64,000 bases of DNA from Chitinophagales bacterium (lineage in GTDB: Bacteria; Bacteroidota; Bacteroidia; Chitinophagales; JABDMM01): assembly GCA_013001465.1 (NCBI GenBank), contig JABDMM010000033.1, forward strand, positions 1-64,000, read 5' to 3'. Both the position numbers and the translations under genes were made by a program. Position 1 is the first letter of the stretch, and each line of letters begins with the position of its first letter. The notes beneath the pieces were generated by a model. That model did not search any database and was not told the DNA's origin. It worked only from the letters and a program-made list of their open reading frames with translations. Positions 2 to 10,339 of this stretch are shown here, one piece after another.

Positions 2-982
2 TCTGATGCTTGGAACATTCTTTTCGGAATGAAGAACAGCAGGGTAAAAAAGAACCAAAAAGAACTTGCAGAAGCAGAAGAGCAACTTAATCAGGCCGAA
101 GCCGAAGCTAACAAGAGGTATAGAGACAGGCTTAGAAATGCAGATATAAAAGACTCTCTGGACAGGATCATCAGTCAGGTACAGGGAATGATTCGAATTA
201 TCGAGGAGATGATCGTCACCACAGACACCCAGATCGCGGCTTTAAAGAATAGAAAGGAACTTGCTTTTGAAACCAAAGAAAAGGCTGCAAAGGTGATGGA
301 GGAACGCTTAGTAGAGTTAGATGATCTTGAGGCAAAATTGAAATCTGCAGAAACTGAATTGGAGGAGATGGATAATGGCAGCCCCGAGTATACTCAACAC
401 CAAAAGAGGATTGCAGATATGAAAGAGCTGCGTGCTGAGTTAAAAGGCAGGTATAATATCGCGATGGGAATTCTTCATTCTAAAGAAAGGTTTGTGGATC
501 AGATCGTTGTTCACCTTGAAGCTCAAACTACAACGAAGAACAATCTAAAACAGCTTATAGGCCAGCTCAAAAGTGATACTGAAGAAAGAATAACCACGTA
601 TGAGTCGGGATTGCAGTTAATTCAATCCGCAACTGCCCAGGAGGCAGCTTCGATCTATGAAGATGCAGGAACAAAAACAGATCAGTTAATAACCGAAATA
701 GCCGCAAAAGTTTTTGTGTCGTCCGAGCAGGATAGAATAGAACGATTGAAAAAGCACCCATCCAGAATGGCTGAACTTCATAAAGTTTTAGTCGCAATGG
801 CACAGGCAACTCAAGAATATAAGGAGAAAGACCTGATACTAATGAAAGAGCACGGAGAAAAATATGGAATTGACATTTCTCAGCAGTTCTCATGGAAGTA
901 TGAAAATGAAGAAACAGATAAAGAGGAAAAGCGAAAACCGGATTCAAATGAGAAGAAGGGAGTAAATGAACTCTTGGATTAA
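2..982 (+). CDS. Coiled-coil protein, first visible gene of the AAA cassette (5' end outside window)
   Basis: The frame is open from base 2, ahead of the first ATG at 29, and reads SDAWNILFG directly into it, so the ATG at 29 is probably internal and the gene starts before the window. The product is almost wholly helical: heptad-rich, very charged stretches cover roughly residues 10-150 (counted from the ATG), followed by a second helical region to about 275 and a lysine/glutamate-rich tail. There is no membrane segment and no signal peptide. The helical second half has a loose resemblance to TelA-like (toxic anion resistance) proteins, which I cannot confirm by eye. Fifteen bases separate it from the next gene, and all six genes to 7507 run the same way, so it is probably a cytosolic structural partner of the AAA ATPase. 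Function unknown. Confidence 0.8.
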   Translation, partial: SDAWNILFGMKNSRVKKNQKELAEAEEQLNQAEAEANKRYRDRLRNADIKDSLDRIISQVQGMIRIIEEMIVTTDTQIAALKNRKELAFETKEKAAKVMEERLVELDDLEAKLKSAETELEEMDNGSPEYTQHQKRIADMKELRAELKGRYNIAMGILHSKERFVDQIVVHLEAQTTTKNNLKQLIGQLKSDTEERITTYESGLQLIQSATAQEAASIYEDAGTKTDQLITEIAAKVFVSSEQDRIERLKKHPSRMAELHKVLVAMAQATQEYKEKDLILMKEHGEKYGIDISQQFSWKYENEETDKEEKRKPDSNEKKGVNELLD

Positions 983-997
983 CACGAATAACAGCAA

Positions 998-2107
998 GTG
1001 AAGACCACCGATATAATCGATCATTTTACCGAGCTTGACCGTAGCATTCTCAAAGGTGAAGATGCCTATGTTGAGTACTTCAATTACATGAGACGGGTAT
1101 TTACGATCCTGATCGATTCCTTCAATAGCAGAACACTTGAGGATCCGGAAGAGATCAACATTCTAAAATCATTTGTGCAAAAGTTTCTCAATACGATCGA
1201 GGCCTTGCGACTGAAGTATCTTTATGAGCAAGATTATCAAATGAAAATCGACCTTACAGACTCATCTTTTCCGAATCATATCGAATTGAGGAATCTGGAG
1301 GCCGATATGGTTGTCCGCGATGAAGAGCTTAAGAAAATGCCTACCGAAGAAGCTTTGAAAAGAGCGACTTTGGACTACCTTTTTCAAGAAAAAGAGGAAC
1401 CCTATCCTCTGTTAAGGCAACTCGGTAAACTTTGTTATTTCAAGATGTTAAAAAAGGACCGGGTTTTTACGACATTTCAGGCAGGTGAATTGGTAAGGCT
1501 AAATGAAGGTTTTCAAAAGGACACGATCAGGCAATATCTCTTTTCATGGGCGTCTTATGATTCGGTAACCAACAGGCCGTTCGTATACATCCTGATATTC
1601 GACCACAATGATCACAAGAACAAATTAATGGGAAATAAAGCGGCTTTCCTACCATTCGTTAATGTCTGTAAGAAGTTCACACATAATTCAGGCCCTCTAA
1701 ATGTTGTTGCCCGTGATATCGATGAAGCCCTCGAGGATGTTCACCCTAAGGTTCTTAAAAGAATTGACCTGGGCCCGCTTTATGGGGCATATTCAAAAGA
1801 TAACCACCAGATGACGAATGTCATTCAAAAGCATTTCAAGCAAAGTGAGTTTGTATTTCTCTTTACTACAGAAATCGTGTTTTCGATAGGAGAGAAAAAG
1901 TCCAAAGGGATACTATCAACGGATAAATTGAGGCAGATCTTCTTTGTGGATGAGTCAAATAAAGACTGTCTTGAACGACACGTGTCCCAAGTTGACAAGT
2001 TTTTACTGGCGTCGCACGGTGTTGTCCAGCATTTAACTGAGTATCACAGAGAGTATATAGACAAGCTCACAATTCCCCCTATTACATATACAGAAAAAGA
2101 AGGTTAA
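998..2107 (+). CDS. Unknown cytosolic protein of the AAA cassette (369 aa)
   Basis: Starts at a GTG 15 bases after the preceding gene; no better-placed ATG exists. I do not recognise the family. The first 130 residues look helical (several amphipathic segments); residues of about 145-300 look like mixed alpha/beta structure with hydrophobic strands such as PFVYILIFDH near 200 and FVFLFTTEIVFSIG near 285. No membrane segment, signal peptide, nucleotide-binding loop or catalytic signature is visible. One base separates its stop from the ATG of the AAA ATPase, so the two are almost certainly translationally coupled and the protein is a likely partner or adaptor of the ATPase (inference from position only). 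Confidence 0.82.
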   Translation: MKTTDIIDHFTELDRSILKGEDAYVEYFNYMRRVFTILIDSFNSRTLEDPEEINILKSFVQKFLNTIEALRLKYLYEQDYQMKIDLTDSSFPNHIELRNLEADMVVRDEELKKMPTEEALKRATLDYLFQEKEEPYPLLRQLGKLCYFKMLKKDRVFTTFQAGELVRLNEGFQKDTIRQYLFSWASYDSVTNRPFVYILIFDHNDHKNKLMGNKAAFLPFVNVCKKFTHNSGPLNVVARDIDEALEDVHPKVLKRIDLGPLYGAYSKDNHQMTNVIQKHFKQSEFVFLFTTEIVFSIGEKKSKGILSTDKLRQIFFVDESNKDCLERHVSQVDKFLLASHGVVQHLTEYHREYIDKLTIPPITYTEKEG

Positions 2108-2108
2108 G

Positions 2109-4073
2109 ATGGAAAGAACTGAAGCCCCTCTATTCCCGATCAGAGATGAAAATCTTAACGAGTTTAAAGATGAGGTAACGGCTTATCTTAAATCTGTAAG
2201 CTATAGTCCGGATAGTAGAAAAGTTGAAAAGGACGGAATAGATTTAAGCTTTCTAATCCATTCCAAGACCTTAGGTGTTGGACAAGAAGACGAGATATCT
2301 ATACTAAAGAATGCGGTTCGCATTAGTGATGATCGGATAATTCTTTCGAACACTGTCAATTTTATTATCAATGCATTAAGAGACGGTCTTTCTATAGGAA
2401 GATACCTTTCTGAACTGTATAAAAAATCATCAGGACTTGAAACGCTTGTTAAGCGCAATAAAGAAGGCTCATTGCATCAATCTGAACAACCTGAATTTCA
2501 CGATAAACTTGAAACACAGAGTGCTATTTATCTTTTTACTTCAGCTTATTATATCGTTTGGAGATTAAACGATTACAGGAGTGACGAAGTGTCTTCTATA
2601 AACATTGAATTTGGTGGGGTTCCCGAGATAAGTGTATCGAGACCAAGCAATTCTGTCCAATGCATGCTTTACTATTATGGAGCATATCTGGAGAGATCAG
2701 GGAGTATAAATAATGAACTCGAGATGCTGAAGATCACCCAGGTTTATTTTGAAAGAATGATCGAAGAAATTCATCTTCGGAAAGATGCATTTAAATATTT
2801 GTCGTTCTTTGAGAACAATCATTATAAACTGGAACACTCCGATTTTATAATCCAGGGATTCGAAAGTGGTTTCTCCTCATCGGTTCACAGCGTGACCTTC
2901 AATAAGATCAGGATGGAGGAAATAGTGGCGAACAGGGAAGCGAAGCACATGTTCAAGAGGTTTGCAGAACGTTTGCTGTGTCATGATTTTGAGGAAGGAA
3001 GAAATCCTATGCTTGAACTTGGCGGCTTGCCTAGTATAACGATGGGAGATGGCCGACCGGGAACTGGTAAGAGTATGTTAATAGCAGCGACAGCCACATT
3101 TATTCAGGAAAAAGCGGATTGGTTGGGAATTCCATTTCTCTTCTGGCCACTTCCGGATAATATAATTTCAACTTATCAAGGAGGCTCTGCAGAGCGAGCT
3201 ATAGAGTGGTTTAGACCGATGAATGATGCGCATAAAATAATATTCGCACCGATCGATGATGCAGAGAATAATCTTGAAGACCGAACCCGAAGAGGAGTTT
3301 CCGCCGGAGTCAGAGAGTTTATTGGTGTTTTCCTTCGAAGTACTGAAGGAGCTTATGCCGTGAATTATGGTAATAAGATGGTGAGCTTGTTTACAAATAT
3401 TCCTGACCAAATAGATAGAGCGGTGTTATCCAGAGTTCAATATCGTGTTCCTATCGACGGAGCCAAAGATGTGATCGACTTTATTGATCAAGATTATTTG
3501 TGGTGGTCGAAGTATGAAAAAATGATGCCTGGTCTAATTGCCATGAAAGATCCAAAATACAAGTATTTAAGTGGCCAACAGGAACTAAATTCGCTCTCAG
3601 AAAGCTATACCGATGATTTCAAATTTACACAACCGGGAGTGGAAGAGGTTTTTCGGGAAGTATCTCAGAAAGTGAACCCCGATGAGCAAGACTTTTTTGG
3701 AAAATTTTATGACAGGATACAAGACCGATATCAATTCTTTTCTTCGAGAGACCTAAGGAATATCCAGAAAGCAGTTGATGCCAGACTTATAGATTTTGAT
3801 CTACCGGAAGCATGGTGGGAATCACCCGAAACTTTCTTCAAGCAGGACTACGAAAACAAGTTGCGAATGTTGAAAGAACTGATGATCGAGAATATGAAAG
3901 ACGTTTCTTTCAAAGATATTCGTCTTCAGGAAGCGTTGTTTTACATAGATACAGCCGTGAGAATTAATGAAAGCGGTATAGAACGAGAGATAGCGGAAAC
4001 TGCCAAGGAGATGCACATAAGATCGGAAGCTTCAGAGCGACTGAAAAACGGAAACATTCAAATAGAAAACTAG
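2109..4073 (+). CDS. Classical-clade AAA ATPase (654 aa), motor of the cassette
   Basis: A single AAA module lies at about residues 290-460 after a roughly 280-residue N-terminal domain that I do not recognise. Walker A is GRPGTGKS (G315-S322). The pore-loop region reads STYQGGSAERAIEWF (about 358-372), matching the aromatic-containing loop and following helix of Cdc48/katanin/FtsH-type AAA proteins. Walker B ends in D383-D384 with E386 close by. The second region of homology is FTNIPDQIDRAVLSR (428-442), including sensor-1 T429/N430 and an arginine-finger candidate R442 or R446. A helical C-terminal region of about 190 residues follows. No protease or helicase domain is attached, so it most likely remodels or moves a protein partner. 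Neighbours on both sides are within 1-3 bases. The family is clear, the biological role is not. Confidence 0.93.
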   Translation: MERTEAPLFPIRDENLNEFKDEVTAYLKSVSYSPDSRKVEKDGIDLSFLIHSKTLGVGQEDEISILKNAVRISDDRIILSNTVNFIINALRDGLSIGRYLSELYKKSSGLETLVKRNKEGSLHQSEQPEFHDKLETQSAIYLFTSAYYIVWRLNDYRSDEVSSINIEFGGVPEISVSRPSNSVQCMLYYYGAYLERSGSINNELEMLKITQVYFERMIEEIHLRKDAFKYLSFFENNHYKLEHSDFIIQGFESGFSSSVHSVTFNKIRMEEIVANREAKHMFKRFAERLLCHDFEEGRNPMLELGGLPSITMGDGRPGTGKSMLIAATATFIQEKADWLGIPFLFWPLPDNIISTYQGGSAERAIEWFRPMNDAHKIIFAPIDDAENNLEDRTRRGVSAGVREFIGVFLRSTEGAYAVNYGNKMVSLFTNIPDQIDRAVLSRVQYRVPIDGAKDVIDFIDQDYLWWSKYEKMMPGLIAMKDPKYKYLSGQQELNSLSESYTDDFKFTQPGVEEVFREVSQKVNPDEQDFFGKFYDRIQDRYQFFSSRDLRNIQKAVDARLIDFDLPEAWWESPETFFKQDYENKLRMLKELMIENMKDVSFKDIRLQEALFYIDTAVRINESGIEREIAETAKEMHIRSEASERLKNGNIQIEN

Positions 4074-4076
4074 ATC

Positions 4077-5345
4077 TTGGAAAGATTAATAGAAAACGGA
4101 CTTTTTGGAAGGGGTTTGATTCACCTTAACAAACCCGCTTTAGTCGATCGCTATAACTCATGTCTCGAAGACATTGGTTTACCGACGAGTGCTTTGGATA
4201 ATTTCCATATCGATGGTTGGGGTTGGAGTCCCGAAATTGCTGATGAAATGGAGAATAAATTCTATCTCTCACATTATGGCCCGGCGAATCCTTATGCTAT
4301 AATAATTAGCCCACTGCAAGAAGACCGACCAATTTATTTTCCATATCATTCCTTCGACAGGCGAATGATGAAAGAAGTTTTTCGACAATGCGGAAGCCAG
4401 ATATCGGACCTCACAACCGAGACAGCAATTTGGATCGATGTTGATCAGGAGATCATGAAATACAGGTCACCGCAAGACTTGTTGATGATCGAGTCGATTA
4501 ATTTAAAGTTTAACTCCACCAGTCATTTGATGAAGGCGGCAAGAGAACAAAGAGAGTTAGTAAGAGTCTTTTATGATGAAGAGAATGCATGGGGCGACCA
4601 GCAGCTGCATAAAAAGATCATCGAGAGTTGTACAAAATATGGAGATCTTCGGTTTCGAAGCCTTGATATACCGGATATTCCTTTCACCAATGTCAGGTCA
4701 TTCTATTCACGTGCCTTTGAAGGAGTTTTTATTTTTAGAGACCTTCCGGGTCAAAAGCCATTATTGGTATTCAAGGGTGATGTGAGTCAGTTTTCAGGAG
4801 AACTTCATCATGGGCATATCGAGTATTCCCTCCATGATAAAAACTTATTAGATAGATTGTTTACAGAGAGGCTGTGTGATATCGACTGGCGTTGGTATAA
4901 GGAGAATGAGGATAGAATAAAGAGAATACAGTATTGCCTGCTTGCAGATGCCATTACTGAAGAATATCCGGATATTAAGTTGAGAGAAGTCACAGGCCCG
5001 AGGAGAAAAAGACTGATCCTTGAATTGGAAGAAAAATTAAAATTAGAGGCGGCATACTTCGAACTCGACCGTATTATGAAACTGTTGGCCAGCAAAAAAA
5101 ACCCGGATGTGAAAGACCTGTCAGATCGATGCCGGATGTTGCTTGCTCACCCTTATGAGTTTGTTCCGGAAGTAACCAAAGATGTTATATGGCAGTTGCT
5201 GGTCAATATGTCACCAGTCGACACTTACCAGACATTTCTCTATGATAAAGAATTGTTCTATGATGAGTATCAGAAATGGAATCATTCGAAAAAGAATTGG
5301 TCGATACACTTTCTAAAACAAGAATACATTTTACCATTTCAATAA
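4077..5345 (+). CDS. Unknown protein of the AAA cassette (422 aa)
   Basis: Starts at TTG 4077, three bases after the ATPase stop; the N-terminus reads MERLIENGLFGRGLIHL. I do not recognise it; it may fall in one of the Bacteroidota-specific DUF families but I cannot name one safely. Residues 1-170 look alpha/beta (IYFPYHSF, AIWIDVDQEI), residues 190-255 contain more strands, and residues from about 270 on are mainly helical. There is no signal peptide or membrane segment. Tight spacing on both sides places it in the same transcript as the ATPase and the two membrane proteins, so it could link the cytosolic motor to the membrane part (inference). Confidence 0.82.
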   Translation: MERLIENGLFGRGLIHLNKPALVDRYNSCLEDIGLPTSALDNFHIDGWGWSPEIADEMENKFYLSHYGPANPYAIIISPLQEDRPIYFPYHSFDRRMMKEVFRQCGSQISDLTTETAIWIDVDQEIMKYRSPQDLLMIESINLKFNSTSHLMKAAREQRELVRVFYDEENAWGDQQLHKKIIESCTKYGDLRFRSLDIPDIPFTNVRSFYSRAFEGVFIFRDLPGQKPLLVFKGDVSQFSGELHHGHIEYSLHDKNLLDRLFTERLCDIDWRWYKENEDRIKRIQYCLLADAITEEYPDIKLREVTGPRRKRLILELEEKLKLEAAYFELDRIMKLLASKKNPDVKDLSDRCRMLLAHPYEFVPEVTKDVIWQLLVNMSPVDTYQTFLYDKELFYDEYQKWNHSKKNWSIHFLKQEYILPFQ

Positions 5346-5350
5346 TCCAT

Positions 5351-5896
5351 ATGAATATTGCACTACCGGTAATATTATTTTTTCTTCTGGGTATACTTTT
5401 ATACTACATCGATCTGAAAGTTGGCGTTCAACTTTATAGAAAGTGGTATAAGCTAACACACAAAGATCCTTTACCTGTAGGAATTCAGAGAGGTTTTATA
5501 GTAAACTCTTCGCTCGAATCACTATTTGGGATCGCTTTGATCTTAATAGTTGCTGAGGTACTGCTGTCTTTCCAAATTGGTAACTCTCCACCACTGCTTG
5601 ATATTCTACTTGGTGTGCTTGGATTTATCGGATTAATGCTTGGTTTCTATCTGGGAGGCATTCTAATGAAAGGCATGGGGAAAACTATAGGTTATCTTGA
5701 GCATATTGAAAAAGGTGAATTGGATCTGGGGAAAGAACTGGTTAAAGGTGTAAAGAAAGCAAGAGAAGCAATAAAGGAAGAAAAGACCAACAGCACAGAT
5801 GATTCCGAAGTACAAGAAGAGCATTCGGAAACAAAAGAGGATGATAAACCAGAGAAGGATTGGAGAGACGGGGTAGATGACTTTTTGAAAAAATAG
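5351..5896 (+). CDS. Small membrane protein of the AAA cassette, three helices and an acidic tail (181 aa)
   Basis: I place the start at ATG 5351, where a membrane helix begins at once (MNIALPVILFFLLGILLYYI); the in-frame ATG at 5276 would add 25 polar residues lying wholly inside the preceding gene and is less likely. Three hydrophobic segments are visible at about residues 4-22, 50-70 and 75-100. They are followed by a basic/amphipathic stretch and then a very acidic tail (about 130-175) rich in Glu, Asp and Lys. Family not recognised. It starts five bases after the preceding stop and ends three bases before the next ATG. Confidence 0.82.
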   Translation: MNIALPVILFFLLGILLYYIDLKVGVQLYRKWYKLTHKDPLPVGIQRGFIVNSSLESLFGIALILIVAEVLLSFQIGNSPPLLDILLGVLGFIGLMLGFYLGGILMKGMGKTIGYLEHIEKGELDLGKELVKGVKKAREAIKEEKTNSTDDSEVQEEHSETKEDDKPEKDWRDGVDDFLKK

Positions 5897-5899
5897 AAT

Positions 5900-7507
5900 A
5901 TGGAAGAAACTTTAAAGGAGTTAAAAGAAGAGAAGGAGCGAGGTCGATTATACTGGTTCATGCGAAACTCATCAAGAGCTCTGTGGTCCTGGATGAAGAA
6001 ACACTGGATATTATCTATTCTAATATTTCTAGTGTTTATTTACCTTGGCATCACAGGTAGAGCAATCTATCAACCGTTTTTATTGAACTTGAGGAAATAT
6101 TTTGTTCTCACGATCATTGTAGTTGTAGTGATTTATTGGTTGATGAGGATATTCTTCAATTCCAGAATTGTTGGAAAGCTTGTTTCGGCCATAGTATTAA
6201 TCGCATTTGTTTTCATGTCGGTAACCCTGGGCCAGCGAGTCTACGAGTATCTTGGTCTATATATTCACTATATAAGTTTAAATAAGGTTGAGTTAACTGA
6301 ATTGCCAACTACAGATCATGAGCGAATCCATCCTCTAAACTCGATACAAACTCTTGCCAGACAGGAGGCTCTGTCTGAAACGGAAGAAGCGACACGGCCA
6401 ATGTTCATAAGAAGAAGAGATGGAAGCTTTGATTTCTCAATGAGCATAGGGCCTTCCCCAGAGTACCCCGCACAGCGATTAGAAAAGAATATGTATCGGG
6501 TAATCAGTGTCTCCGCCACGACCCCTGCACCCGATTTTTCTAAAAAGAATCAATATGATGCGAACTTTGATGTGGGTCCATTCTTACTGTTTTCTAAGAA
6601 CATAAATACAGCCTCGATAAAATCTTTTAACTTTTTTCAATTTTTCAATTATGAAATAGGTGAACCTTTCTTTCTTGAAGACAACAGTGGGAATTGGGTA
6701 CAAGTAGTTCCTCTCATTCGATGGAAAGGGGTATTGATTCCCAGACCTGTATTTGGGGGAGTTTTAGTGTTTCATCAGATAGAATCAACTGGCATAAGTC
6801 GGTACTTAAGAAGAATATTCACCGGTGTAGGTGATTTCATTCCTTCGAATAAAATTGAAAGCTTCTCATATCTCAAAGGGCAACATCTCTTACCAATAAA
6901 GGTTGCGAGGTTTATTGCGGAAAGTTTCCGCTTTCAGGAGGGCTTTTTTGCACCAATGCCTGGATATCACGAAGGAGACATTCGGATACCCGACATGCCA
7001 CAGGATCAAAACGAGCAACCGTTTTTCACGTATTTCAATATTCCAGCCAGAGGTGGGATACTTTGTAGTTATTTTGGCCTTGAGCCATATCAGGAGACAA
7101 AAAAGGGCCTTAATACTTCACTTATCATTCCGGGAGATAGCGATAATGAAGTGTTTTTCAAAGATCACTCCGAACAGAGGGATGGATTGATAGGGTCAAG
7201 TGCAGTACCGTCTAAAGTTATAGAAAGTAAAAAGAACTATGACTGGTCTAAAAACCACCCGGCAGAATCGAGACCTTATATAAAAGAGATCGGAGGTAAG
7301 AATAGATTTTTCTGGTTGAACACGGTTGTAACAAACATGGACGACACGGGTACTGATTTTATTGGAGGGACAATTCCGGATGTCACAATAACAGATGCTA
7401 AATATGGTAGAGTGGTTTGGATCGAGCAGAAAAATTTAACATCTCAAGGTCAATGGAAGGAGCAAATATCTGAGGAATTGAATTCTATTTGGGAGCAGCG
7501 AAATTAA
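5900..7507 (+). CDS. Membrane protein with three N-terminal helices and a large C-terminal domain (535 aa), last gene of the AAA cassette
   Basis: A basic N-terminus (about 35 residues) is followed by three membrane segments at about 36-56, 63-80 and 88-108. With a cytosolic N-terminus by the positive-inside rule, three crossings put the remaining 425 residues on the outer face of the inner membrane. That domain contains strand-rich sequence (NWVQVVPLIRWKGVLIPRPV near 275) but no motif I can assign; it is not obviously a peptidase, hydrolase or sugar-binding domain. It is the last gene of the run and its stop overlaps the stop of the convergent esterase gene by four bases (TTAA). Confidence 0.82.
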   Translation: MEETLKELKEEKERGRLYWFMRNSSRALWSWMKKHWILSILIFLVFIYLGITGRAIYQPFLLNLRKYFVLTIIVVVVIYWLMRIFFNSRIVGKLVSAIVLIAFVFMSVTLGQRVYEYLGLYIHYISLNKVELTELPTTDHERIHPLNSIQTLARQEALSETEEATRPMFIRRRDGSFDFSMSIGPSPEYPAQRLEKNMYRVISVSATTPAPDFSKKNQYDANFDVGPFLLFSKNINTASIKSFNFFQFFNYEIGEPFFLEDNSGNWVQVVPLIRWKGVLIPRPVFGGVLVFHQIESTGISRYLRRIFTGVGDFIPSNKIESFSYLKGQHLLPIKVARFIAESFRFQEGFFAPMPGYHEGDIRIPDMPQDQNEQPFFTYFNIPARGGILCSYFGLEPYQETKKGLNTSLIIPGDSDNEVFFKDHSEQRDGLIGSSAVPSKVIESKKNYDWSKNHPAESRPYIKEIGGKNRFFWLNTVVTNMDDTGTDFIGGTIPDVTITDAKYGRVVWIEQKNLTSQGQWKEQISEELNSIWEQRN

Positions 7508-8631
7508 TTTTCTCCAAACAGGAATAATAGTGGTTTATGGACTCTTTTAGACCAGGCTTTTTCGTTATGGAATGCACCTTCATCCAGGTGCCAAACATAG
7601 TTGTATCCTTTATTATCGAGGAGTTTCATCATTCTATCCACTCCAGGTTGTAATTCCTTTTCCAGCTCCTCCGTTCCATTATCTATATAAACCTTTATGT
7701 TGCGTAGGTTCTCAGTATCATTTTTTACATGAGAAAGATAAGAAAGGTCATATTTTGGTATATCAAAAGCAGGCGATAGGCAAGCTGCTTTTCCGAATAC
7801 TTCAGGATATTCCCAAGTCAGGATAAAAGAAATCAAACCACCCATCGATGAACCCATAATGGCAGTGTTACTTGGGTCAGTTTTGGTTCTATATGATGAA
7901 TCGATGAATGGTTTCAGATCGTTAACCAGCCAGGAGGCATATGTCTGCCCCTCTGTTAGATATGAATATTCATTTGTTCTTTTAGCGGTATTGTATATTG
8001 CAACAGCAATGAACTCTTCAGCCTGATCAATAGCAAACAGACTATCAGAAACTTCATCAACCCTCCAGTCGTTTCCGGTATAAGAAGTATAGGGATTGAA
8101 AACGTTTTGACCATCATGCATATAGAGCACCGGAAATCTTTTATCTGCGTCATATTCATATGAAGGAGGGAATCGCACGATAACATGTCTGGAGGCTAGC
8201 CCCTTTGTTGGCATATCTTTATGAAGGAGAGCATTTCCACTAACACCCATAAGGATATCAGTGTTTTTCCAGTGCTTTATTTCTAAAGAGATGGATGTAT
8301 CTTTTGTAACTCTTACTTTGAAATTGCCCCTCACTTTTTCATCATCGGTAAGAGCTTCTGTCATCCAGCTACCTTTCGTTAACTTGAATTCTATTGTCGT
8401 ATCGGAATAGAACTTGAAGTCACCTACCCATTTTTGGTTTTCTTCCTCGAAATCAAAATGAATTTTAGATGGATCCCAAAACCCAAATTTAGAATGGTTG
8501 CCGCTAATATAGACTCTTTCCGAAGAAGGGTCGATGTTGTTGCTTTCAACTTGAATTTTGACGTGATGTTCCTGATCCTTGCAAGAGAAGAGAGTAGAGA
8601 GGAATATAAGAATAATGCAATAGCGTATCAC
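7504..8631 (-). CDS. Putative esterase lipoprotein with N-terminal starch-binding-like domain
   Basis: The signal peptide ends in a lipobox (LFSC, Cys near residue 17), so the product is predicted to be a lipoprotein. Residues of about 25-130 resemble a CBM20-like beta domain (VYISGNHSKFGFWDPSK, then IEFKLTKGSW). Residues of about 140-375 are an alpha/beta hydrolase of the esterase D / enterochelin esterase type: PVLYMHDGQNVF, a nucleophile elbow GSSMGG with S262, and a late histidine in EGAFHNE. It probably cleaves an ester on a sugar or siderophore-like substrate, but the substrate cannot be read from the sequence. It lies one base downstream of the DUF349 gene on the same strand, suggesting cotranscription. 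Confidence 0.88.
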   Translation of the reverse strand: MIRYCIILIFLSTLFSCKDQEHHVKIQVESNNIDPSSERVYISGNHSKFGFWDPSKIHFDFEEENQKWVGDFKFYSDTTIEFKLTKGSWMTEALTDDEKVRGNFKVRVTKDTSISLEIKHWKNTDILMGVSGNALLHKDMPTKGLASRHVIVRFPPSYEYDADKRFPVLYMHDGQNVFNPYTSYTGNDWRVDEVSDSLFAIDQAEEFIAVAIYNTAKRTNEYSYLTEGQTYASWLVNDLKPFIDSSYRTKTDPSNTAIMGSSMGGLISFILTWEYPEVFGKAACLSPAFDIPKYDLSYLSHVKNDTENLRNIKVYIDNGTEELEKELQPGVDRMMKLLDNKGYNYVWHLDEGAFHNEKAWSKRVHKPLLFLFGEN

Positions 8632-8632
8632 A

Positions 8633-10339
8633 TCAATTTTTAGGAATGAGTTTATACTTTTCCTTGAGGTCGTTTAATAGCTCTTTTTGGGCGTCAATTT
8701 TCTTTATCAATTCATCTCTTAAAGGATTTGCATGATTGGTGTTTTTAAAGAAACCCATTTTATCCTCAAGAGAATAAAGCTCTGACTGGGTTTTGGATAT
8801 CCTGTCTCGCATTTGATTACGTTCCTTTCGAAACAGATCTTCTCTTTTACTGCTATCCTTGTACCCGTCGAGTTTGTGTTTAAATTTCAGTATATCTTTT
8901 TCATGCTTATCCATATCTAAAGCCGAATATATCTTGCTCACTGCTTTATTATATGATTGATTTATTGAGTCTATCGATCCCGAAGGAACTTGATCGATCG
9001 CTTTCCATCGAAGGGCAAAGTCTTTTAAAGCCTCCAGATCTTCATCTTGAACGCCCTTTGAGGTATAATTATTGATCTCTTTGATGAGGTCTTCTTTTAA
9101 AACTAAGTTTTCCCTTCTCCGATCATCGATGGTAGCATAAAACTCTTTCTTTGCTGCAAAAAAATCATCACAAGCACTCTTAAATTTTTTCCATAATTTT
9201 TGTTCATCAGACCTGTTTGCCGGACCTATCTTTTTCCATTCTTTCTGAAGTTGAATGAATTGTTCAGTTGCTTCTTTCCAGTCTTCGGAATCCTTGATGT
9301 CACCGGCTGCTTCGATCAACTTCTTTTTAGCTTCCTTATTTTCTTGTTGCTGAGCTTTACTTTTATCGAAATGGGCTTTCTTCTTTTCAAAAAACAGATC
9401 GCATGCTTTTTTGAATTCAGCCCAGCATTCATCATTTTGCTTTTTGTTCAAAAACCCGGTCTTTTTCCAAAGTTGTTGGATTTCGATAACCTCTTCTGTG
9501 TGTTTCTGCCAGTCTTTAAATTTGCTAATATCAAGCTTATTCAAGCTATCAACTTTTTCTATCAGTGCTTTTTTTTCATTGTAAGCTTCTTCATGAAACT
9601 TGTGTACCTCTTCATAATGGTGATGGATTCGTTCATAGATTTTATTGACCGTATCGTAGTATTTGTTTCTTACCTCAGGCCACTTATCTTGAAGAGTTGG
9701 GCCTATACTGCTCCATTCTTTCTGATAAACTCTAATTAAGTATTCAACCTGTTTAACAGATTCGATGGCGTTGAGAGACTCGATTTTGTGGATCAATTCA
9801 TTCTTGAGTTCAAGGTTCTTTTCAAGGCTATATTCTCTGAGCTCTCTGTAAATTTTTGCATTATAATAGAATTCATCTACCAATACATTGAAATCGTGTT
9901 GAAGCGATTTTTCATCAGTTGGATTTACATGACCACTATTGTGCCACCTTTCTTTAATAGCATTGAATTCATCAAATGCAGGACCAGCTTCTTTTTCTTT
10001 TTTAATCAAGAGCCTAAGCTCATCGATAATCTTGGTTTTGTCGACGACATGTTTTTTCTTATCATCTTCGGTTGGTTCTTGTTCTTCCTGTGACTTTTCT
10101 TCTTTAACATCCTTTTTCGCTACATCAGATGCTGAATCATCATTTTTTGGTTCATTTTGATTCGAAGTCTCTTCGCTCTCAGATCCGGTATCAGCAGATG
10201 TTTGCTCAGGAACAGGATCAGTAGAATCGTTCTCAGTGCTTTCAGAAGTTTCCTCAATCTGATTTTCATCTGTGGTCCCTTCAGGATCAATATGATTCTC
10301 TAATTTACTTTCGTTCTCTATTTTATTTGACTCTTCCAA
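8633..10339 (-). CDS. DUF349 repeat protein (568 aa)
   Basis: The first 110 residues are a disordered, strongly acidic segment (Glu/Asp/Ser/Thr). After it come five copies of a helical unit of about 65 residues with a conserved tryptophan and a KEWKKIGP-like signature, starting at about residues 112, 185, 260, 341 and 415; these match DUF349 repeats. A charged coiled-coil tail (about 485-568) follows. DUF349 proteins are common in Bacteroidota and have no firmly established function; the predicted fold is elongated helical. Its gene precedes the esterase gene by one base. The upstream 250 bases hold a nested inverted repeat (10473-10530) that could lie in its leader. Confidence 0.9.
   Translation of the reverse strand: MEESNKIENESKLENHIDPEGTTDENQIEETSESTENDSTDPVPEQTSADTGSESEETSNQNEPKNDDSASDVAKKDVKEEKSQEEQEPTEDDKKKHVVDKTKIIDELRLLIKKEKEAGPAFDEFNAIKERWHNSGHVNPTDEKSLQHDFNVLVDEFYYNAKIYRELREYSLEKNLELKNELIHKIESLNAIESVKQVEYLIRVYQKEWSSIGPTLQDKWPEVRNKYYDTVNKIYERIHHHYEEVHKFHEEAYNEKKALIEKVDSLNKLDISKFKDWQKHTEEVIEIQQLWKKTGFLNKKQNDECWAEFKKACDLFFEKKKAHFDKSKAQQQENKEAKKKLIEAAGDIKDSEDWKEATEQFIQLQKEWKKIGPANRSDEQKLWKKFKSACDDFFAAKKEFYATIDDRRRENLVLKEDLIKEINNYTSKGVQDEDLEALKDFALRWKAIDQVPSGSIDSINQSYNKAVSKIYSALDMDKHEKDILKFKHKLDGYKDSSKREDLFRKERNQMRDRISKTQSELYSLEDKMGFFKNTNHANPLRDELIKKIDAQKELLNDLKEKYKLIPKN

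Follow-up and report, generated by a model that had tools for sequence, protein, structure and literature searches.

A conserved six-gene cassette of Bacteroidota that probably encodes a membrane-linked AAA ATPase machine

Six consecutive genes (g1 to g6) at the left end of a Chitinophagales bacterium contig probably encode one AAA-driven, membrane-linked machine, a reading to which we assign a probability of about 0.7. The stretch of DNA that we analyzed, referred to as the window, comprises 64,000 nucleotides (positions 1 to 64,000 of contig JABDMM010000033.1, assembly GCA_013001465.1). The six genes, all on the plus strand, fill positions 2 to 7507 according to the list of open reading frames and a corrected start of g5. 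They include a classical AAA ATPase gene (g3), genes for three soluble proteins (g1, g2, and g4), and genes for two predicted membrane proteins (g5 and g6). An earlier note, made from the sequence without database searches, had described six same-strand genes separated by 1-15 bases, and the coordinates confirm this spacing: from g1 to g6, the gaps are 15, 1, 3, 5, and 3 bases (with the start of g5 taken as 5351).

Co-occurrence of the genes was scored in a single large family belonging to the class of the source organism, with one genome per genus (121 genera). g3 was found in 40 of these genera, and separate searches for g6, g1, and g4 returned exactly those 40 genera again, with no discordant genome. 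Each of the four genes is present in one copy per genome; the exception is a draft genome whose g6 is split across the ends of two contigs. All six genes stand in order at 43 of the 47 Bacteroidota loci that were fetched. Two further loci keep the order around a large unrelated inserted gene, with g4-g6 beyond the insertion, and one is interrupted by contig ends. In the last, a complete genome, g1-g2-g3, g4-g5, and g6 lie at three separate places. This genome has retained every gene, which favors function over mere proximity, and the ordered loci, together with the shared set of 40 genera, argue that the grouping is not due to chance. Within the large family, the whole block is found in at least two chromosomal contexts: close to genes for an ABC-F protein and pirin-like proteins, or close to genes resembling those for NhaD, glutamate dehydrogenase, and AnmK (neighbors named from sequence by eye). 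It therefore behaves as a unit. The earlier note had proposed that the genes form one linked machine and had named orthologues that are usually scattered as an outcome that would speak against it. That test has now been run and did not refute the proposal, which is supported by the all-or-none presence, the kept order, and the retention of the genes when split.

The cassette is patchily distributed: in addition to the 40 of 121 genera, it was present in 5 of 60 relatives and in 6 of 393 genomes of a phylum sample, and a contig search of the whole genome collection returned two loci only. Patchy presence and the use of more than one chromosomal setting could point to a stress-response or anti-phage system instead of housekeeping envelope biology. 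We consider this improbable, however, since none of the six proteins gave a significant match to the PADLOC defence models, none of the components appears hypervariable or toxic, g1 and g3 show high conservation, and the same chromosomal sites are used repeatedly.

Several loci carry additional genes within the cassette. The most frequent is a NudK-like Nudix hydrolase gene, located between g3 and g4 at 21 loci (for example, L020:7902-8489). In genome G364, the Nudix gene is separated from g4 by a gene for a 1618-residue CheB/CheR-PAS-like protein (assigned by eye; L017:2523-7379), and in genome G142, a gene for a 1490-residue protein occupies the same place (L019:2659-7131). At another locus, a small gene resembling REP/IS200-type transposases, again by eye, separates g4 from g5 (L013:11532-11954). 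Finally, an in-frame open reading frame at a contig end (L016:10270-12693, G022:C70) joins residues 1-393 of g3 to residues 40-416 of g4, and represents either a deletion or an assembly chimera.

Part of the cassette extends beyond Bacteroidota. A tblastn search of a plasmid collection detected g3 and g4 in Sinorhizobium, Shinella, Rhizobium, and Vibrio, each of which carries g1-g2-g3-g4 in the same order. When Bacteroidota and proteobacterial proteins were compared using hhalign, the probabilities were 98.4% for g1, 99.9% for g2, and 100% for both g3 and g4, which confirms, at the level of sequence comparison, that g1 to g4 are homologous between Bacteroidota and Proteobacteria. Homologues of g5 and g6 were not found beside the proteobacterial core and were seen in Bacteroidota only. 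The deep core therefore consists of four soluble proteins, to which individual lineages have added membrane parts. A gene encoding a DUF2333 membrane protein (PF10095) follows the core in Sinorhizobium and Shinella. This protein resembles g6 in being a membrane protein with a presumed outer domain encoded at the end of the core, but it is not homologous to g6 or g5, a relationship that was ruled out by hhalign. The record from Sinorhizobium meliloti Ak57 (L101) is labeled pSymB and is 3.7 Mb in size, which we take to be closer to the size of the chromosome than to that of pSymB; the label may be wrong. A guessed locus tag, SMc02733, appears in a ChvI DNA-binding screen; it was not shown to be one of the core genes and was therefore not used here.

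The product of g3 is clearly a member of the classical AAA family by sequence, despite a deviation in its Walker B motif. It matches Pfam AAA (PF00004) with an E value of 2.6e-8, above the cut-off, and the top of the PDB list for the g3 profile is occupied by VCP, Cdc48, Rpt4, and Vps4, all over the large AAA subdomain only. Like these proteins, g3 has the Walker A motif, an aromatic pore loop, the sensor 1 Asn, and an arginine finger region. Walker A (G.PGTGK[ST]) and the pore loop (S[TSE][YF]QG) are present in 55 of 55 orthologues, so that the earlier description of g3 as a classical AAA ATPase with an aromatic pore loop holds across the set. Unlike VCP/Cdc48, Rpt4, and Vps4, g3 has an N-terminal region of its own (approximately 260 residues, without a Pfam match), unrelated partners, and Asp-Asp in Walker B. 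The Asp-Asp pair, in which Asp takes the place of the catalytic Glu, is present in 54 of 55 orthologues (D383 and D384 are invariant). A search for the Pfam MIT domain on g3, by sequence only, gave no match at E values up to 1.

The partners of g3 are less familiar. The product of g4 is a clear member of DUF6638 (PF20343; E value of 1.9e-42, 146.1 bits against a gathering cut-off of 27), a Pfam entry to which no function is assigned. For g1, g2, g5, and g6, nothing scored above the cut-off in Pfam or NCBIfam, and PHROGs and PADLOC gave nothing convincing. PDB profile searches of g2, g4, and g6 returned no matches. g2 carries a motif conserved across phyla, hPKxLKRIxLGPxY. Both g5 and g6 had been described earlier as three-helix membrane proteins, with a 425-residue domain of g6 outside the inner membrane. 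A hydrophobicity scan supports the first point, showing about three hydrophobic segments in each protein, and charge bias agrees with the second; topology was assigned from these two sources and not from a trained predictor. By the same reasoning, the charged tail of g5 is probably cytosolic. This tail ends in DWRxGVDDFLKK in the window and mostly in ARERLKDKGxL in family f25. The structure model of g6 had a predicted local distance difference test (pLDDT) score of 33.

The g1 protein is the most conserved of the six. In the large family, its mean pairwise identity is 84%, compared with 80% for the AAA protein and 54-71% for the others. Such conservation is unusual for a coiled coil and fits a protein with many contacts or binding surfaces. 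Within the stretch DTEqR...Y, positions show little or no variation between phyla, and 48 of 48 Bacteroidota copies close with a variable tail and an acidic-LL motif. An AlphaFold model predicts a helical hairpin (74 and 82 residues), most of which has a pLDDT of about 75-92; the model is partial and was built from a 3-sequence alignment, with an overall pLDDT of 61. Our structure-model alignments are shallow because they were restricted to the window and two loci. A PDB profile search with g1 returned coiled-coil matches only (e.g., keratin). These data support the earlier view of g1 as a coiled-coil or long helical protein. Fold searches with the model yielded no significant match: the PDB matches (ciliary proteins, F-BAR domains, alpha pore-forming toxins, and chemoreceptors) all had E values above 0.01, and we read them as generic helical bundles.

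The earlier note had also suggested a resemblance to Vps4/ESCRT or TelA systems, and this suggestion fared poorly. If g1 were a relative of PspA/Snf7 and g3 a relative of Vps4, the cassette could carry out ESCRT-III/Vps4-like or PspA-like membrane remodeling. A helical hairpin protein with a terminal motif does adjoin a classical AAA protein in the cassette, the solved structures closest to the g3 AAA domain include Vps4, and bacterial PspA/Snf7 genes next to AAA ATPase genes have been reported (PMC11237479, in the passages available to us). The likeness to the gene sets in those passages is that the gene for a helical protein adjoins genes for an AAA ATPase and membrane proteins; the difference is that g1 is not detectably PspA and that g2, g4, g5, and g6 match no parts described there. 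Against Bacteroidota PspA, hhalign gave g1 a probability of 0.1-0.3%, whereas a true distant g1 orthologue, used as a positive reference, scored 98%. No Pfam match linked g1 to this family, neither Snf7 nor PspA was among the 50 PDB fold matches listed for the g1 model, VCP and proteasomal Rpt4 outscored Vps4 against the g3 profile, and no PspA gene was found in the source genome. We regard an ESCRT-III/Vps4-like or PspA-like system as very unlikely.

A variant of TelA/XpaC-type tellurite or toxic-anion resistance, with g1 as a TelA (PF05816) relative, is also very unlikely. The two proteins are similar in size and helical content, and a phage TelA model ranked 12th among the viral fold matches of g1 (E value of 6e-3, probability of 1.00). 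However, many of the viral matches ranked near it were SMC-like or other generic coiled coils. Sequence comparison gave no support: hhalign probabilities did not exceed 0.3% even with 7 TelA sequences, full-length g1 did not match PF05816, and hidden Markov model searches produced no cross-hits between g1 and TelA. Nor do the two share neighbors, as the 15-19 kb around 7 TelA genes contained no relatives of g1-g6. No TelA gene was found in the source genome.

How the machine might work is a more tentative matter. The mechanism that we favor, at somewhat less than even odds, is a membrane-anchored remodeling machine, located on the cytosolic side of the inner membrane, in which g3 acts on g1. 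The g3 protein would assemble as a hexamer and dock on the terminal motif or the tail of g1, and g2 and g4 would serve as adaptors. Through its pore loops, g3 would then pull on g1 assemblies, take them apart, or recycle them. g5, with its cytosolic tail, would anchor the complex to the membrane, and the large outer domain of g6 would connect it to a periplasmic event or partner. This mode of action would be akin to that of other AAA-plus-helical-substrate remodelers, without descent from ESCRT-III/Vps4. The step on which it turns, that g1 is a rod worked on by g3, is similarly tentative. A broader version, unrelated to ESCRT, in which g3 assembles or disassembles g1 polymers on the inner membrane, g5-g6 couple them to the outer envelope, and the core spans Bacteroidota and Proteobacteria with a membrane module swapped between lineages, is possible but doubtful.

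The most serious alternative is that g3 does not act on g1 at all. Instead, g1, g2, and g4 could be adaptors or scaffold proteins that hand over another client (an envelope protein, for instance, or a complex bound to g5/g6) to g3, and g1 could be a rigid spacer or a coiled-coil regulator. Three conserved soluble partners exceed the needs of a simple substrate-motor pair, and g1 gave no match to a polymer fold, ESCRT-like or otherwise. AAA adaptors commonly bear linear motifs, which we also count in favor of this alternative. However, the conservation of g1 exceeds that of g2, g4, and even the motor, which would be unusual if g1 were only a spacer, and we consider the alternative plausible but on balance unlikely.

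Several observations weigh against the idea of a membrane-linked machine in which g3 works on g1. The 40-genus pattern partly reflects shared descent and does not amount to 40 independent events. The putative role of g1 as substrate is argued from operon position, conservation, and the tail motif, and proteobacterial g1 copies do not carry the acidic-LL terminal motif. With Asp in place of the catalytic Glu in Walker B, ATP hydrolysis by g3 could be slow or atypical. Finally, in Rhizobium leguminosarum and Vibrio, no membrane gene was recognized directly behind the core, and the link to the membrane may thus exist in certain lineages only.

The features of the cassette are listed in Table 1. 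Because the window begins at base 1 of the contig, g1 is incomplete and has lost approximately 133 codons: its alignment to a 461-residue relative starts at residue 134 of that protein. In relatives, full-length g1 has approximately 445-465 residues, and its gene opens the set. The lost 5' part had no match anywhere else in the assembly. For g5, the listed open reading frame starts at 5276 and overlaps g4; we moved the start to the Met at 5351, and aligned relatives all start no more than 2 residues away. The right edge of the cassette was set at 7507, where g6 meets a convergent esterase gene. This gene (7504-8631, minus strand) shares four bases with the end of g6, and its product is an esterase with a starch-binding-like domain. 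The second gene past the cassette (8633-10339, minus strand) codes for a protein that matches DUF349 five times.

Table 1. Coordinates of the cassette genes and their motifs in the window
Feature	Position	Strand	Description
g1	2..982	+	All-helical coiled-coil protein, C-terminal 326 residues only; 5' end cut off
g1 terminal short motif VNELLD	962..979	+	After variable tail
g2	998..2107	+	Soluble, 369 residues, no known family match
g3	2109..4073	+	Classical AAA ATPase, 654 residues
g3 Walker A GRPGTGKS	3051..3074	+	
g3 aromatic pore loop STYQG	3168..3182	+	
g3 Walker B	3255..3260	+	Asp-Asp in place of usual Asp-Glu
g4	4077..5345	+	Soluble DUF6638 protein, 422 residues
g5	5351..5896	+	Predicted membrane protein, approximately three helices, charged tail with conserved end motif
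g6	5900..7507	+	Predicted three-helix membrane part (residues ~37-108) and conserved domain of ~425 residues

As judged from the protein sequences, the AAA motor belongs to a known type, and its set of partners appears to be new. In a partial literature search, which did not cover preprints, we found no published description of the six-gene system. The literature searched contained no mention of DUF6638 and only an incidental mention of DUF2333, in work on the type VI secretion system. The AAA passages of a survey of phage shock protein (PSP) systems (PMC11237479) describe other gene sets. The retention of all tested parts or none, together with a core that is found across phyla, suggests that the cassette does something that its owners need as a unit. 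Because the core is present in S. meliloti and Rhizobium, which are genetically tractable, this question is directly testable. If g1 is indeed a polymer worked by an AAA ring, the cassette would represent an AAA-driven envelope machine that evolved independently of ESCRT.

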